NCBI GenBank assembly: GCA_017610205.1
Contig: JAFCCL010000008.1
Span: 1 to 64,000 of the forward strand
DNA: 64,000 nt
From: Candidatus Iainarchaeum sp.
GTDB lineage: Archaea; Iainarchaeota; Iainarchaeia; Iainarchaeales; GCA-2688035
Reading direction: 5' to 3'
Notes under the pieces: generated by a model
Database searches by the model: none
What the model was told of the DNA's origin: nothing
What the model saw: the letters and a program-made list of their open reading frames with translations, nothing else
Shown: positions 12,938 through 58,158 of the stretch, one piece after another
How the letters are laid out: each line of letters begins with the position of its first letter
Position numbering within the stretch: position 1 is the first letter of the stretch
Position numbers and translations under genes: made by a program

Positions 12938-13483
12938 TTGATACCCTTGCCGACAAAAAAAAAGTTTATCAAATTACCTTTAGTACAGGAATTCCTAGAA
13001 GGAACAGGTGGAGAAGCAGCCATAGGAGTTGCAGCCTTTTGTGAAAAAAAAGGCAAACGAGTGACAGACGAAGAAATCGCAAAAAAAATGAAAGTAAAAG
13101 TTACTGAAATAAGAACTGTTTTGAATAGATTGCATTACAAAGGAATTGCGTGTTATAAAAAAACAAAAAATAAGAGAAACGGATGGTATAATTATACCTG
13201 GGAAATTAAAAAGAAACGAATTGTCGAACTAATTCTTGAAGAACAAAAAGAAAATATTAAAAAACTTGAGGAAAAACAGAATTTTGGAAAAAATTACTGT
13301 TTTTTCAGTTGTAAAAACACATGCAATGTTACTCCTTTTGAAATAGCAGCAGAATACCAATTTAAATGCCCTGAATGTGGAGAAACTATGAATTCGTTTG
13401 ATTACAGTAAAAAACTTGAAAGTATCAACAAACAGATAGATACAATGAAAAAAGAAGTAGGGCAACTGGAAAAAATAACCTAA
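12938..13483 (+). CDS. tfe: Transcription factor E (alpha subunit)
   Basis: Archaeal homolog of TFIIE-alpha, which helps RNA polymerase open promoters. Residues 1-95 form an extended winged helix (GGEAAIGVAAFCEKKGKRVTDEEIA). A coiled-coil linker with KRIVELILEEQKE follows, and then a zinc ribbon with CFFSC and CPECG near residues 120-152. The C-terminal helix has KQIDTMKKEV. Translation is assigned to TTG 12938 because TTTAAATC at 12907-12914 lies about 28 bases upstream, as expected for a leaderless transcript. Confidence 0.92.
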   Translation: MIPLPTKKKFIKLPLVQEFLEGTGGEAAIGVAAFCEKKGKRVTDEEIAKKMKVKVTEIRTVLNRLHYKGIACYKKTKNKRNGWYNYTWEIKKKRIVELILEEQKENIKKLEEKQNFGKNYCFFSCKNTCNVTPFEIAAEYQFKCPECGETMNSFDYSKKLESINKQIDTMKKEVGQLEKIT

Positions 13484-13650
13484 AAAACACAAAATCTTGG
13501 ACAGATTTTAAAACAAAGAAAGAAAGAAAAAATAATAAAATCCTGGCCCCACAAGCCTTTTCATAAGCTTAAAAGGCCAGAAATTAAGCTAAATGAGAAA
13601 TAGGGTAAAAAAAGACGGTTTTGGTTGAAAAGGGGTTAGAAGGCTTCTTT

Positions 13651-13679: not shown

Positions 13680-13754
13680 AGCGGGGTGGGGCAGCCAGGA
13701 GTGCCCGTCGGGCTCATAACCCGAAGGTCGGAGGTTCAAATCCTCTCCCCGCTA
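13680..13754 (+). tRNA. Initiator tRNA-Met (CAT)
   Basis: A 75-nt tRNA with anticodon CAT in loop CTCATAA. The anticodon stem TCGGG/CCCGA carries the three consecutive G-C pairs that mark initiator tRNA, and the acceptor AGCGGGG/CCCCGCT starts with the archaeal initiator A1-U72 pair. T-arm is GGAGG-TTCAAAT-CCTCT. It has no intron and no encoded CCA. Confidence 0.95.
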
Positions 13755-16512: not shown

Positions 16513-17403
16513 TTACAGCCTGTCCAGTGGACTTTTTACTTTCTTTAATTCTGCCGTGCTTACTCTTGTATATATTTGGGTAGTGCTTAAGTCGCTGTGC
16601 CCTAAAAGTTCCTGTATTTTTCTAATGTTTTCACCTGTTTCCAGAAGGTGGGTTGCGTAACTATGCCTCAAAGTATGTGGGGTAACCTTTTTTTGAATAC
16701 CTGCTTTTTCAGCTGCTTTTTTTACAACTCTTTGTACTGTGTCTGATGAAAGAGGTGTTCCATTTTTTTTACTAAAAACAAAAACACTTTTGATTTTTTT
16801 TCTTTTGAGATATTTTTTTATGTGTTTTAACCATTCTTTTGAGAGTATTATCATTCTGTCCTTATTTCCCTTTCCTCCTCTTATTGAGGCCATTTTTTCT
16901 TTAAAATCCAGATTCTCTGTTTTGAGTTTGACACACTCACTTACCCTGCATCCTGAACTGTAAAGGAATTCTACAATCAACCTGTCTCTTTTTGGAGGAG
17001 TTGCCTTTATCAATTTTTTTACTTCGTCTCTTCCAAGCACTGTTGGAAGTTTTGTAGCCTTTTTTGCAATCTTTATATCTTCAACTATTTTCTTACGCAT
17101 TATTTTGTGGAAAAAGAAATGCAAAGCCGCGTGAACTAATGCAAGCGTTGCATTACTTACATTTCCTTTTTCTTTTTTTTCTGCAAGGAACGCAACAATA
17201 TCATCGCGTTCACATTGTTCAATTGGTTTTTTTAAAAATCGGTCGAATTCATTAAAATAACACAAATACATTTTTACAGTTCTTGAACTGTAACCACTCA
17301 CTATCAACTCTTGTCTTAGTTTTTGAACCCAATTATCATTTCCAATTTCTTCCACGCTGCCCTTTTCATCTTTTACTTCAGAAGTGTTTGCAGTATAATC
17401 CAT
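16513..17403 (-). CDS. xerA: Tyrosine recombinase XerA
   Basis: A 296-residue XerA/XerC/D-type recombinase that resolves chromosome dimers at a dif site. The N-terminal SAM-like core-binding domain spans about 22-105. The catalytic set is complete: Arg153 in GCRVSE, Lys178 in GGKGNKDR, His243 and Arg246 in HTLRHSYATHLL, His269 in LLGHSDL and nucleophile Tyr278 in TQIYTRV. The first 20 residues are an acidic extension not typical of the family. An integron or phage integrase is less likely because there is no adjacent tRNA or element boundary. Confidence 0.92.
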   Translation of the reverse strand: MDYTANTSEVKDEKGSVEEIGNDNWVQKLRQELIVSGYSSRTVKMYLCYFNEFDRFLKKPIEQCERDDIVAFLAEKKEKGNVSNATLALVHAALHFFFHKIMRKKIVEDIKIAKKATKLPTVLGRDEVKKLIKATPPKRDRLIVEFLYSSGCRVSECVKLKTENLDFKEKMASIRGGKGNKDRMIILSKEWLKHIKKYLKRKKIKSVFVFSKKNGTPLSSDTVQRVVKKAAEKAGIQKKVTPHTLRHSYATHLLETGENIRKIQELLGHSDLSTTQIYTRVSTAELKKVKSPLDRL

Positions 17404-55518: not shown

Positions 55519-55540
55519 AATTAACACAAATTTTAGGACA
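55519..55540 (+). repeat. 22-bp direct repeat, copy 1
   Basis: The core TTAACACAAATTTTAGGACA is preceded by AA, and an identical 22-bp copy occurs at 58137-58158. A degenerate version (GCACGAATTTTGGGACA) occurs at 56179-56195. Each follows a plus-strand stop codon within about 9 bases. The perfect copies bracket the toxin-antitoxin island. Confidence 0.8.
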
Positions 55541-55644
55541 CGAAATTCTCCCAATGCCAACCCCCCTTTTTTTGCGCTGGGAATTGAACTGGAAGTGAAA
55601 GGGTGTAAAAGGGTTTTTGGGATAGGAAAGACTTATACGCTCTT

Positions 55645-55660
55645 GTATACATATGTATAC
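55645..55660. promoter_or_regulatory. 16-bp perfect palindrome at RelBE-like promoter
   Basis: GTATACATATGTATAC is self-complementary. ACTTATACG upstream (55631-55639) is a box A candidate, which places the palindrome over the transcription start, where the antitoxin-toxin complex would repress. Confidence 0.75.
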
Positions 55661-55673
55661 TTGGTGATTGTTT

Positions 55674-55913
55674 TTGGCTTCTACTACTATAAGGCTTGAA
55701 ACCAGTACAAAGAAAGGGCTGGAATCCCTCAAGGAACACAGGAGGGAAACTTTTGATGAAGTGATTGAAAAGCTCTTGGCTCTTGTTCCGGAAGGAGATG
55801 AGGAAGGAAAGTACTCTGATGAGTTCAGGGCAGGGCTTTTGGAAGCCCACTTTGACGCAAAGCAGGGGCAATTTGTTTCCCTCAGCAAGCTTAAGAAGGA
55901 CATTGGGCTTTGA
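55674..55913 (+). CDS. RelB/VapB-like antitoxin
   Basis: A 79-residue protein: STTIRLETSTKKGLESLKEHRRETFDEVIEKLL is an RHH-like N-terminal DNA-binding segment (TTIRLE), followed by an acidic linker EGDEEGKYSDE and a toxin-binding tail GQFVSLSKLKKDIGL. TTG 55674 is taken as start because GGTGA lies 8 bases upstream; TTG 55668 is closer to the site. Overlaps/abuts the toxin gene, so it is the antitoxin of that module. Probably autoregulates through the palindrome at 55645. Confidence 0.8.
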   Translation: MASTTIRLETSTKKGLESLKEHRRETFDEVIEKLLALVPEGDEEGKYSDEFRAGLLEAHFDAKQGQFVSLSKLKKDIGL

Positions 55914-55915
55914 CC

Positions 55916-56170
55916 ATGTGGCAGTTGGCTTTTACAAGAAGGGCTGAAAAGGACTTTCTTCGCCTGGAAAAAGAGGTTTCAAAGAGAATTATAGCAAAGC
56001 TTGAAAAAAGCCTTAAAGACCCAAAAAAACACTTTTCTCAGGTTAAGGACACAGACTACCACGAGCTTCTGGCAGGCGACTACAGGGTGCTTGTAATCCT
56101 GCAACAGTCAAAGCAAGTCATTGACGTAAGAAGGGTTGGGCACAGAAGAAACATTTACAAAAACATTTAA
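55916..56170 (+). CDS. RelE/ParE-family toxin
   Basis: An 84-residue RelE-like toxin: MWQLAFTRRAEKDFLRLEKEVSKRI, then YHELLAGDYRVLVILQQSKQVIDVRRVGHRRNIYKNI. The Arg/Lys/His residues of the C-terminal strands (YRVLVI, VRRVGHRRNIYK) match mRNA-cleaving RelE. ATG 55916 follows the antitoxin stop by 3 bases. Confidence 0.85.
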   Translation: MWQLAFTRRAEKDFLRLEKEVSKRIIAKLEKSLKDPKKHFSQVKDTDYHELLAGDYRVLVILQQSKQVIDVRRVGHRRNIYKNI

Positions 56171-56178
56171 AATAAAAA

Positions 56179-56195
56179 GCACGAATTTTGGGACA
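56179..56195 (+). repeat. Degenerate copy of the 22-bp island repeat
   Basis: GCACGAATTTTGGGACA matches the 3' part of the island repeat at 14 of 17 positions and follows the relE stop codon by 9 bases. It supports the idea that each cassette ends with this element. Confidence 0.45.
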
Positions 56196-56198
56196 TGT

Positions 56199-56702
56199 TT
56201 ATTTTTTCTTCACAAGCTTGCTTCCAATAAAGCTGCCTGCAATTCCTATGGCAAAATTGAGTATTGCAAGAAACACTGTGCCAATAATTACTGAAAAGAT
56301 TACCATTGACTTGTAATCTGCCAAAGACATTGTTGTAAAGAATTCAATTCCTAATTCTGCAAGTTCGTCCATTTGAATTTGCCATGCTGCATCAGTCATT
56401 AGCAAAAGGGCACCAGCGCTCAAACCCATTAATATCAGTCCGCCAATTGCTGCTCCCAGGGCCGGAACAAAAAGAATGAACTTTATGTTCTTTGTTTTCT
56501 TTGAAATAAGGTAACCGCTTGGAATGCAGCCAACCAACGCAGGCAAAACAAGCACTACAATTGAAAAAAGCATCAATCCGGCTGAAAGCGTTACATCGCC
56601 TGTTTCCGGAACAAAAAAGTTTCCAAGCAAATCCATTATAGTAAAAATTATTGCAGTAAGAACTGCCGCCAGCAAAGCCTCCTTCCAAAATTTCTTACAC
56701 AT
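56199..56702 (-). CDS. Membrane protein, 4 helices
   Basis: A 167-residue protein with helices near 10-30 (LLAAVLTAIIFTIMDLLGNFF), 38-60, 70-105 and 135-160, and a short basic tail KLVKKK. No family recognised. It lies between the toxin-antitoxin modules on the opposite strand. Confidence 0.6.
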   Translation of the reverse strand: MCKKFWKEALLAAVLTAIIFTIMDLLGNFFVPETGDVTLSAGLMLFSIVVLVLPALVGCIPSGYLISKKTKNIKFILFVPALGAAIGGLILMGLSAGALLLMTDAAWQIQMDELAELGIEFFTTMSLADYKSMVIFSVIIGTVFLAILNFAIGIAGSFIGSKLVKKK

Positions 56703-56865
56703 TCAAACAAAACAAGGGCCAAAGTAGTATTTTAGTGTTTCGCTAAACCACCATCGCCCACTCCCACACATCTACCTTGGCCTAACCGCCAAAGCCGTTT
56801 GGGTTGAATGAATGTGATGTGAAAAGGTGTAAAAGGGTTTTTGAGGGCTTAAGACCAGTGTTTTG

Positions 56866-57183
56866 TCACTGGCTTTTTAGCCTATGCAGCCTTTTTTCAA
56901 GTTCGTTGTAAAGTTCTTGTTTTTTTTTCTTGTTTAGTTTGAATAGTTGTTTCTCAATTGCTTTTTCTGTGAGGGTAAAAATATAATTTGTCTTTATTAC
57001 GCTATCTTTTATTGCTCCGTCTTTTTTTGTAAGAGCAATACCCTTCATTCTAACATTGCTTGTTATGCCTGCAACAACAACGTTTCCGAGTTCCTCAAAA
57101 AGGACTACTGCCGGCCTCTTCTTTATTTCAAAGGTGTCAGTGAACTGTGCCTTTGCAAGCACAACGTTTCCTGGTTCAAGCAT
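56866..57183 (-). CDS. PemK/MazF-family toxin
   Basis: A 105-residue endoribonuclease-like toxin: EPGNVVLAKAQFTDTFEIKKRPAVVLFEELGNVVVAGITSN shows the PemK beta barrel (D/F loop, KRPAVV). Lys/Arg-rich C-terminal helix KAIEKQLFKLNKKKKQEL follows. ATG 57183 overlaps the antitoxin stop by 8 bases, so expression is coupled and the longer upstream frame is rejected. Confidence 0.88.
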   Translation of the reverse strand: MLEPGNVVLAKAQFTDTFEIKKRPAVVLFEELGNVVVAGITSNVRMKGIALTKKDGAIKDSVIKTNYIFTLTEKAIEKQLFKLNKKKKQELYNELEKRLHRLKSQ

Positions 57184-57403
57184 TTTCCCAGTCCTCATCT
57201 TCCTTATTGTCCCAAAGCTCAGCCATTTTTTCCTGCTGAATCTTATGCAGAAACTCGTCATACTGGTTTTTCATCTTGCAGGCCTTGTAAACCCTTGTAA
57301 GCTCAAGAATCAGCTCAGAGTAGGTCTGCCTTGGATACTGTTTGACTTCCTTCAACTCTGCAAGAGCCGGTTTCTTAACCTGAATAGTAGTAACATCAGA
57401 CAT
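57176..57403 (-). CDS. Antitoxin of the PemK module
   Basis: A 75-residue protein: SDVTTIQVKKPALAELKEVKQYPRQTYSELILELTRVY is an RHH-like DNA-binding head; the acidic tail with DNKEDEDWENA binds the toxin. ATG 57403 is 29-40 bases after a 12-bp palindrome, giving an autoregulated promoter. The stop codon overlaps the toxin start. Confidence 0.8.
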   Translation of the reverse strand: MSDVTTIQVKKPALAELKEVKQYPRQTYSELILELTRVYKACKMKNQYDEFLHKIQQEKMAELWDNKEDEDWENA

Positions 57404-57431
57404 ATAACTCACATATAAGAGATACATAGTT

Positions 57432-57443
57432 AGTTATATAACT
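57432..57443. promoter_or_regulatory. 12-bp palindrome at PemIK-like promoter
   Basis: AGTTATATAACT is self-complementary and overlaps the likely box A of the antitoxin start at 57403. A matching half-site ATATAACT lies at 57402-57409. Confidence 0.5.
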
Positions 57444-57549
57444 CTTTCTTATGTCCTTTTCCTCTTTTTTATTGTTTCGGGCATACGTGGTGGAAAGTGA
57501 AAAAAAGGGGAAAAGAACCGATGTGGCAAAAGAGGAAACAAACATAAAT

Positions 57550-57577
57550 ATATATACTTGTTAGTATTAGTATATAT
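57550..57577. promoter_or_regulatory. 9-bp inverted repeat at promoter of the third TA module
   Basis: ATATATACT (57550-57558) and AGTATATAT (57569-57577) are perfect complements with a 10-nt spacer. They surround the TATA region before the toxin start at 57590, so a bound antitoxin dimer would block initiation. Confidence 0.6.
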
Positions 57578-57589
57578 TATGGTGTTTTA

Positions 57590-57805
57590 TTGAAACGTGT
57601 ATTTTTCTTCAGCAAGCACTACAGGAAAGACAAGGGAATTGACACAAGTCTTGCAATTGAATGCATTAATACTGGGAAGAAAGCACTTGATGAAAAACCA
57701 AATAAGTTCAAAAGTCACAAAAAGCACAGGAAAGGGGTGCTAATAGTTGTTTGGAAGGACCGAGGAGAGAAATGTTTTGTGATAACAGCCTATTGGAAAC
57801 ATTAG
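57590..57805 (+). CDS. Putative toxin (DUF4258/RelE-like), toxin-first module
   Basis: A 71-residue basic protein: RVFFFSKHYRKDKGIDTSLAIECINTGKKALDEKP, KFKSHKKHRKGVLIVVWKDRGEKCFVITAYW. The order of helix then beta with HYRKDKGI and VLIVVWKD resembles the DUF4258/YoeB-like RNase fold. Starts at TTG 57590. It precedes its antitoxin by 13 bases, the reverse of the usual order and like HigBA or MqsRA. Confidence 0.7.
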   Translation: MKRVFFFSKHYRKDKGIDTSLAIECINTGKKALDEKPNKFKSHKKHRKGVLIVVWKDRGEKCFVITAYWKH

Positions 57806-57818
57806 GAGATGATGAAAA

Positions 57819-58136
57819 ATGATTGAGAATGAGAAATGTCCAAAATGTGAAAATGGAAAACTGCACGAAGTATTTGATGAGGTAGAGCCAGGCATAAAGG
57901 TTGAATCATTCAAATGCGGCAAATGCAGTGAAACCTGGTATTCGCAGGAAATAATGGAGAAAATAGAGGCCATGCAGGGAGCAAAAGCAGAGCAAAGGAG
58001 ACTGGTTAAAGTTGGAAACAGCATTGCAGCAATAATTCCGGCAAAAATAGCCAAAAAGCTGGACTTGCATGAAAAGGAAAAAATCTACGTGGAAGAGCAA
58101 AACGGCGAAATCCTGATAAGGGCAAGCAAAGTATAA
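57819..58136 (+). CDS. Zinc-ribbon + AbrB antitoxin
   Basis: A 105-residue protein with two domains: a zinc ribbon (CPKCENGKLHEVF, KCGKCSETWYSQE; residues about 7-45) and a SpoVT/AbrB swapped-hairpin DNA-binding domain (RRLVKVGNSIAAIIPAKIAKKLDLHEKEKIYVEE). The N-terminus resembles MqsA, the antitoxin of MqsR, but with AbrB in place of the HTH. It follows the toxin by 13 bases and ends at the right-hand 22-bp repeat. Confidence 0.85.
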   Translation: MIENEKCPKCENGKLHEVFDEVEPGIKVESFKCGKCSETWYSQEIMEKIEAMQGAKAEQRRLVKVGNSIAAIIPAKIAKKLDLHEKEKIYVEEQNGEILIRASKV

Positions 58137-58158
58137 ATTAACACAAATTTTAGGACAA
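58137..58158 (+). repeat. 22-bp direct repeat, copy 2
   Basis: Identical to the copy at 55519-55540 and begins immediately after the AbrB-antitoxin stop codon. With the first copy it encloses about 2.6 kb carrying three toxin-antitoxin modules. Confidence 0.8.

Follow-up and report, generated by a model that had tools for sequence, protein, structure and literature searches.

A 17-nt motif conserved behind the TFE gene in Iainarchaeales recurs as a direct repeat around a toxin-antitoxin island

Background

The core site of a tyrosine recombinase needs inverted arms, as in Xer sites, where two such arms lie around a spacer, and attC sites need a core pair. Archaeal regulators can have binding sites upstream of the BRE/TATA. 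Among described systems, archaeal integron attC sites and CALINs (Sci Adv 2022, PMC9668308) resemble the locus analysed here in that short, directly oriented repeats follow small genes and the cargo includes toxin-antitoxin genes; the main text of PMC9668308 does not name Diapherotrites. The Acinetobacter pdif modules (PMC13141974, PMC6449649) likewise combine toxin-antitoxin modules between short sites with an Xer-like recombinase in the genome. The U-rich archaeal terminators read by aCPSF1 (PMC7515710) share with our motif the location behind stop codons and, with many of its copies in one family (f8), a T-run.

In this article, we analyse a stretch of 64,000 nucleotides of Candidatus Iainarchaeum sp. 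(contig JAFCCL010000008.1, positions 1 to 64,000; hereafter the window), in which a toxin-antitoxin island lies between two copies of a direct repeat. A sequence-only reading of this DNA had suggested either a shared 3' end element or a recombination site like an integron cassette boundary. We conclude that the island repeat is a copy of a signal found directly behind the TFE stop codon and very probably not a gene-cassette boundary.

Results and discussion

The repeat bracketing the island is, as the sequence-only reading had it, perfect over 22 nt (AATTAACACAAATTTTAGGACA, 55519-55540 and 58136-58157, both on the plus strand). Its 20-mer core, exact at 55521-55540 and 58138-58157, has no further match at up to 3 mismatches in the 64 kb, and none of 100 shuffles reached 2. 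The degenerate copy claimed after the RelE/ParE stop is also present (56174..56195, +, 77%), and all local copies share one orientation. The core of the right-hand copy (58141) lies 4 nt past the stop of a MazE/AbrB-like gene, that of the degenerate copy (56179) lies between the ParE stop, 8 nt behind it, and the end of a convergent membrane protein gene, 3 nt ahead, and the left-hand copy is preceded by the stop of an ORF of 65 codons without a family match. A second repeat, of 35 nt (86%; 55585-55619 and 56809-56843), is found within this genome in the island only. Its core GTGTAAAAGGGTTTTTG may be a core promoter, since it also stands ~20-35 nt upstream of a hisC-like start in a congener (G005).

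The island begins with an antitoxin-like gene (55668..55913, +; DUF7557/VapB-like, a weak match with E 4.5e-5, under the curated cut-off) and a toxin gene of the ParE/RelE superfamily (55910..56170, +; PF05016, E 7e-10), whose match is above the cut-off (39.7 bits vs 23). The membrane protein gene (56199..56702), a PemK/MazF-like toxin gene (56866..57261; PF02452, E 8e-7) and the presumed antitoxin of the latter (57176..57427), so assigned by position with DUF7557 at E 0.08, occupy the minus strand. They are followed on the plus strand by a DUF4258 gene, presumed to encode a toxin (57590..57805; E 9e-5, slightly under the cut-off), and a zinc-ribbon plus MazE/AbrB-like gene, presumed to encode an antitoxin (57819..58136; PF04014, E 1e-8; TIGR01439, E 3e-5, under the cut-off). 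The three modules proposed from the sequence are thus supported in their ParE, PemK/MazF and MazE/AbrB members, while the partners match weakly (DUF7557, DUF4258). The membrane protein, which has no function assigned, has a 75%-identical homologue in a congener (G004) that also sits between two motif copies (L046 9445-9951); its neighbours are pyrF-like in that congener and toxin-antitoxin genes in the window. A PF00589 search found no recombinase gene in the island and five PF00589 genes genome-wide. The best of the five is an Xer-like tyrosine recombinase at 16555-17037 on the minus strand (304-codon frame, E 2e-47), which lies ~3 kb from the TFE motif and is the nearest to the island.

The weak match noted earlier behind the TFE gene proved to be real. 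The gene (TFIIE alpha; 12938..13483, +; PF02002, E 6e-19, above the cut-off with 68.3 bits vs 22.9) has its stop at 13481-13483, and the motif copy ACACAAAATCTTGGACA (13487..13503, +) starts 3-4 nt past it. This copy is the top match of the whole genome (E 9.6e-6) for a motif profile, followed by the left-hand and right-hand island copies (E 0.0013 and 0.0014); because 42 TFE copies and 5 others, the window copies included, went into building the profile, the order of these matches does not count as independent evidence. A match in coaE comes next, in coding sequence common to congeners. The genome, which was covered by pattern and profile searches, holds four copies when chance coding matches are set aside, namely the one at TFE and the three in the island. 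The conserved downstream neighbour of TFE is a tRNA-Met (CAT) gene (13680..13754, +). Between the motif and this gene, Rfam gave nothing above the gathering score except the tRNA, and no conserved sequence past the motif was seen by eye; a non-coding RNA in this interval was rejected on these grounds.

The evidence that carries our interpretation comes from TFE genes collected from 63 genomes of the order, in which the sequence 3' of the stop was inspected. The strict count comprised the 59 TFE loci whose downstream sequence extended for at least 60 nt: the pattern C.C.{8}GGACA occurs within 60 nt past the stop in 48 of the 59, and in 37 of these 48 it lies 0-5 nt past the stop, counts that do not represent independent events because the loci are phylogenetically related. 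Only 10 of 11,800 Markov-shuffled control sequences show the pattern. A background of 675 genes, 26 with the pattern, is an unfair control because those loci were fetched on account of the motif. By a looser criterion, the motif is found behind TFE in 55 of 63. Most of the genomes are incomplete MAGs; outside the window, genes were called from ORFs, and in the related genomes many were named by eye.

The consensus of the 17-nt motif is AAAACACAAAWWSTWGGACA, and 55 aligned copies yield AAAACACAAA-W-W-S-T-W-GGACA, where GGA is invariant, the flanking C and A are nearly so, and the central and flanking columns tolerate A or T, with G or C almost absent. Copies compared in pairs are on average 75-85% identical within the motif vs 36-46% in the flanks, which cannot be aligned. 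The relatives in this series belong to Diapherotrites/Iainarchaeales, archaeon GW2011_AR10 among them, and TFE genes of Micrarchaeota are without the motif. Within the order, about 10 TFE loci are also without it, three of them in f4. Downstream of TFE there is usually a tRNA-Met (CAT) gene, at a variable distance of about 55-200 nt from the motif. In one genome (G033; L116, L184) the TFE frame is broken by an in-frame TAG and the protein continues to a later stop, which again precedes a motif variant; the interruption could be a sequencing error, decay or recoding. These comparisons directly demonstrate the conservation, position, orientation and lineage limits of the motif, and we regard it as established, at the level of sequence comparison, that a single archaeal order (Iainarchaeales/Diapherotrites) conserves the motif as a cis-element of fixed orientation.

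Regarding its role, we favour, at roughly even chances, a cis-acting site of ~17 nt at the borders of transcription units that would be bound by a lineage-specific factor. A putative sequence-specific protein of Iainarchaeales/Diapherotrites would recognise the site; behind the TFE stop and upstream of tRNA-Met, the bound factor would set the border of two transcription units, either by 3'-end formation or termination or by blocking read-through. The 3'-border role is favoured because the motif is anchored to the TFE stop, and read-out of duplex DNA would fit columns that accept A/T and almost never G/C. The lack of a known binding factor, the scarcity of T-runs at TFE copies and the TFE loci without the motif speak against the border role.

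Copies elsewhere have to be counted with caution. The genome-wide search suggested by the sequence-only reading did not set the repeat apart from its control, the window's own genome having 18 matches at up to 3 mismatches vs 23 for the reversed pattern; since such loose matches are no commoner than the control, only near-exact or context-supported copies are considered. Among 75 genomes, the 17-mer occurs 44 times at up to 1 mismatch vs 4 times for the reversed control, an enrichment not to be taken at face value because a large share is coding, including orthologous coaE. In the window's genome and four congeners (L003, L044, L055, L056, L140), the 16-mer core also lies antisense within the codons for the coaE P-loop, which we read as shared coding sequence. 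Weak profile matches outside f8 fall mostly inside ORFs and were discarded.

Most f8 genomes have 14-42 profile matches each. One of them (G054) has about 20 intergenic copies, several of which lie 34-51 nt before start codons, often with a T-run next. Divergently transcribed gene pairs enclose many of the copies in f8 and G036, 34-51 nt upstream of starts. In f8, a TTTAAA-like box stands between motif and start at dph2-, dph5-, map- and adk-like genes (names given by eye) and at the tRNA-His unit. Orthologous f8 copies before the dph2-/dph5-like genes and the tRNA-His unit are kept where the surrounding intergenic sequence has mostly diverged. Positions +2 to +8 after the f8 motif are enriched in T, and T5 occurs within 14 nt of it in 15 of 32 copies (further on, in 1/32 and 3/32), whereas a T-run follows 2 of 46 TFE copies. 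Because f8 copies lie before start codons, the earlier statement that the repeat always follows a stop is not general: it clearly holds for 56179, 58141 and the TFE copy, is less clear for the left-hand island copy behind its family-less ORF, and is contradicted by the many copies in divergent intergenic regions of related genomes. The idea of a shared 3' end element survives in part: across the order the motif stands behind the TFE stop, and in several genomes behind other genes too, although in f8 there are also copies before genes.

The same arrangement raises the main alternative, in which an activator or repressor would bind the motif close to the promoter, immediately upstream of the next gene's TATA box; the motif's place behind the TFE stop would be incidental, and at TFE it would serve the tRNA-Met unit. 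The copies in f8 and G036 fit such a site at least as well as a border because they precede starts, with the intervening TTTAAA-like box in f8 and a pirin-like gene 39 nt downstream of a copy in G036. Outside TFE, moreover, the copies are oriented towards the downstream gene more regularly than they come after an upstream gene of their own strand: the right-hand gene is on the same strand in 24 vs 6 cases and the upstream gene in 17 vs 17 (crude gene calls, families pooled), which counts against the border role. A promoter site is in turn difficult to reconcile with the tight distance to the stop at TFE as compared to the loose distance to tRNA-Met, and with the island, where 127 and 197 nt separate copies from the starts that follow and one copy faces a convergent gene. 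We consider the promoter site a serious possibility that is nevertheless somewhat improbable on the sequence evidence. A DNA-binding factor at transcription-unit borders would cover both the TFE anchoring and the f8 promoters.

If the motif marks borders, further copies would have been gained at other borders, behind toxin-antitoxin genes in the window and in two more genera, and at many intergenic places in f8. In G011, an MNT-like gene and its small partner lie between two motif copies, one of which follows the small partner (their toxin-antitoxin nature was judged by eye, with no Pfam match), and in G066 a copy follows a gene that is HicB-like by eye. A few copies, such as those at G004:C11:38499 and G005:C105:3139, have no same-strand gene ahead, which also speaks against the border role. 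In G054 (C71; L225, L314), ~60 nt of the TFE 3' end are duplicated together with the motif, almost identically, behind the next gene, so copies can move by duplication or conversion; the identical 22-nt pair of the island would best be accounted for in the same way, by an element that was recently duplicated or gene-converted on the spot. Two local arrangements were also observed: three tandem copies ~52-61 nt apart near a radical-SAM-like gene start in G011 (C66; L266, contig 2424-2562), and two copies in G066 (L264 1144-1220 and L265 1166-1240), each followed by the same hairpin-rich stretch, the stems of which show paired changes (GCCGG/CCGGC vs GCGGG/CCCGC; GTGCTGTC/GACAGCAC vs GTGCTATC/GATAGCAC), which suggests a structured RNA or a mobile repeat. 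A more specific and unlikely version of the border role holds that an order-specific factor reads the 17-nt signal at the TFE stop, for border setting or autoregulation, and that the toxin-antitoxin genes acquired the same signal; if true, these genes would be coupled to how the basal transcription machinery stands.

Mobile toxin-antitoxin cassettes bounded by a site for site-specific recombination (integron attC, dif/pdif or integrase att) would account for toxin-antitoxin-like modules between direct copies in the window's genome and in G011, and the genome has its five tyrosine recombinase genes, one of them close to the TFE copy. We nevertheless hold this reading to be very unlikely. The motif is vertically conserved as a single copy at TFE, the local copies all point one way, and loose matches across the genome do not outnumber their reversed control. 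Reading of the motif and its consensus revealed neither the attC core pair RYYYAAC ... GTTRRRY nor a foldable palindrome, and as to dif/pdif sites (~28 bp, inverted arms, short spacer), the consensus is symmetric at best at 4/6 or 4/7 positions. No integron integrase accompanies the array in the island, all five PF00589 genes being elsewhere in the genome. No empty site was found; the left-flank gene was found in one congener only, where the surroundings are not syntenic. The integron-like boundary proposed earlier, and pdif with it, was therefore rejected for want of a core, a dyad and an adjacent recombinase, as was a viral att site, since the 20-mer occurs exactly just once in viral contigs, inside coding sequence.

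An origin as the end repeat of an insertion sequence or MITE now in decay, to which copies scattered between genes and the family-less short ORFs beside the left-hand copy might point, is highly improbable: the window has direct copies only, with no inverted partner at up to 3 mismatches, and order-wide conservation at one gene disfavours this origin. IS256/Mutator ends in particular were rejected, a search covering that group having found no transposase in the genome. Chance similarity, suggested by loose matches that equal their control and by weak matches outside f8 that lie mostly in ORFs, several in orthologous coaE, is negligible overall; for the copies in the window, with 56179 as a possible exception, it is refuted by the exact pair, the TFE series and the orthologous intergenic f8 copies.

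Comparison with known systems

Literature searches on the lineage, promoter motifs and termination brought up no title describing the motif, and the 17-nt signal behind the TFE stop is apparently undescribed so far. It persists in ~80% of the TFE loci examined, in intergenic sequence that otherwise cannot be aligned between families. The motif points to an unrecognised regulator or termination factor in Diapherotrites and supplies a sequence handle for finding it, and the island exemplifies a repeat around toxin-antitoxin genes that imitates a cassette boundary.

In contrast to archaeal attC sites and CALINs, the motif is without core sites or a palindrome, sits at a housekeeping gene and has a single strong copy in most genomes, and unlike Acinetobacter pdif sites it has no dyad. 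It differs from the U-rich terminators read by aCPSF1 in comprising a fixed 17-nt sequence beyond the T-run and in TFE copies that are mostly without one. Archaeal regulator sites are similar in orientation and distance to the copies at f8 promoters and in their A/T-tolerant spacer, whereas at TFE the motif is anchored to the upstream stop codon.
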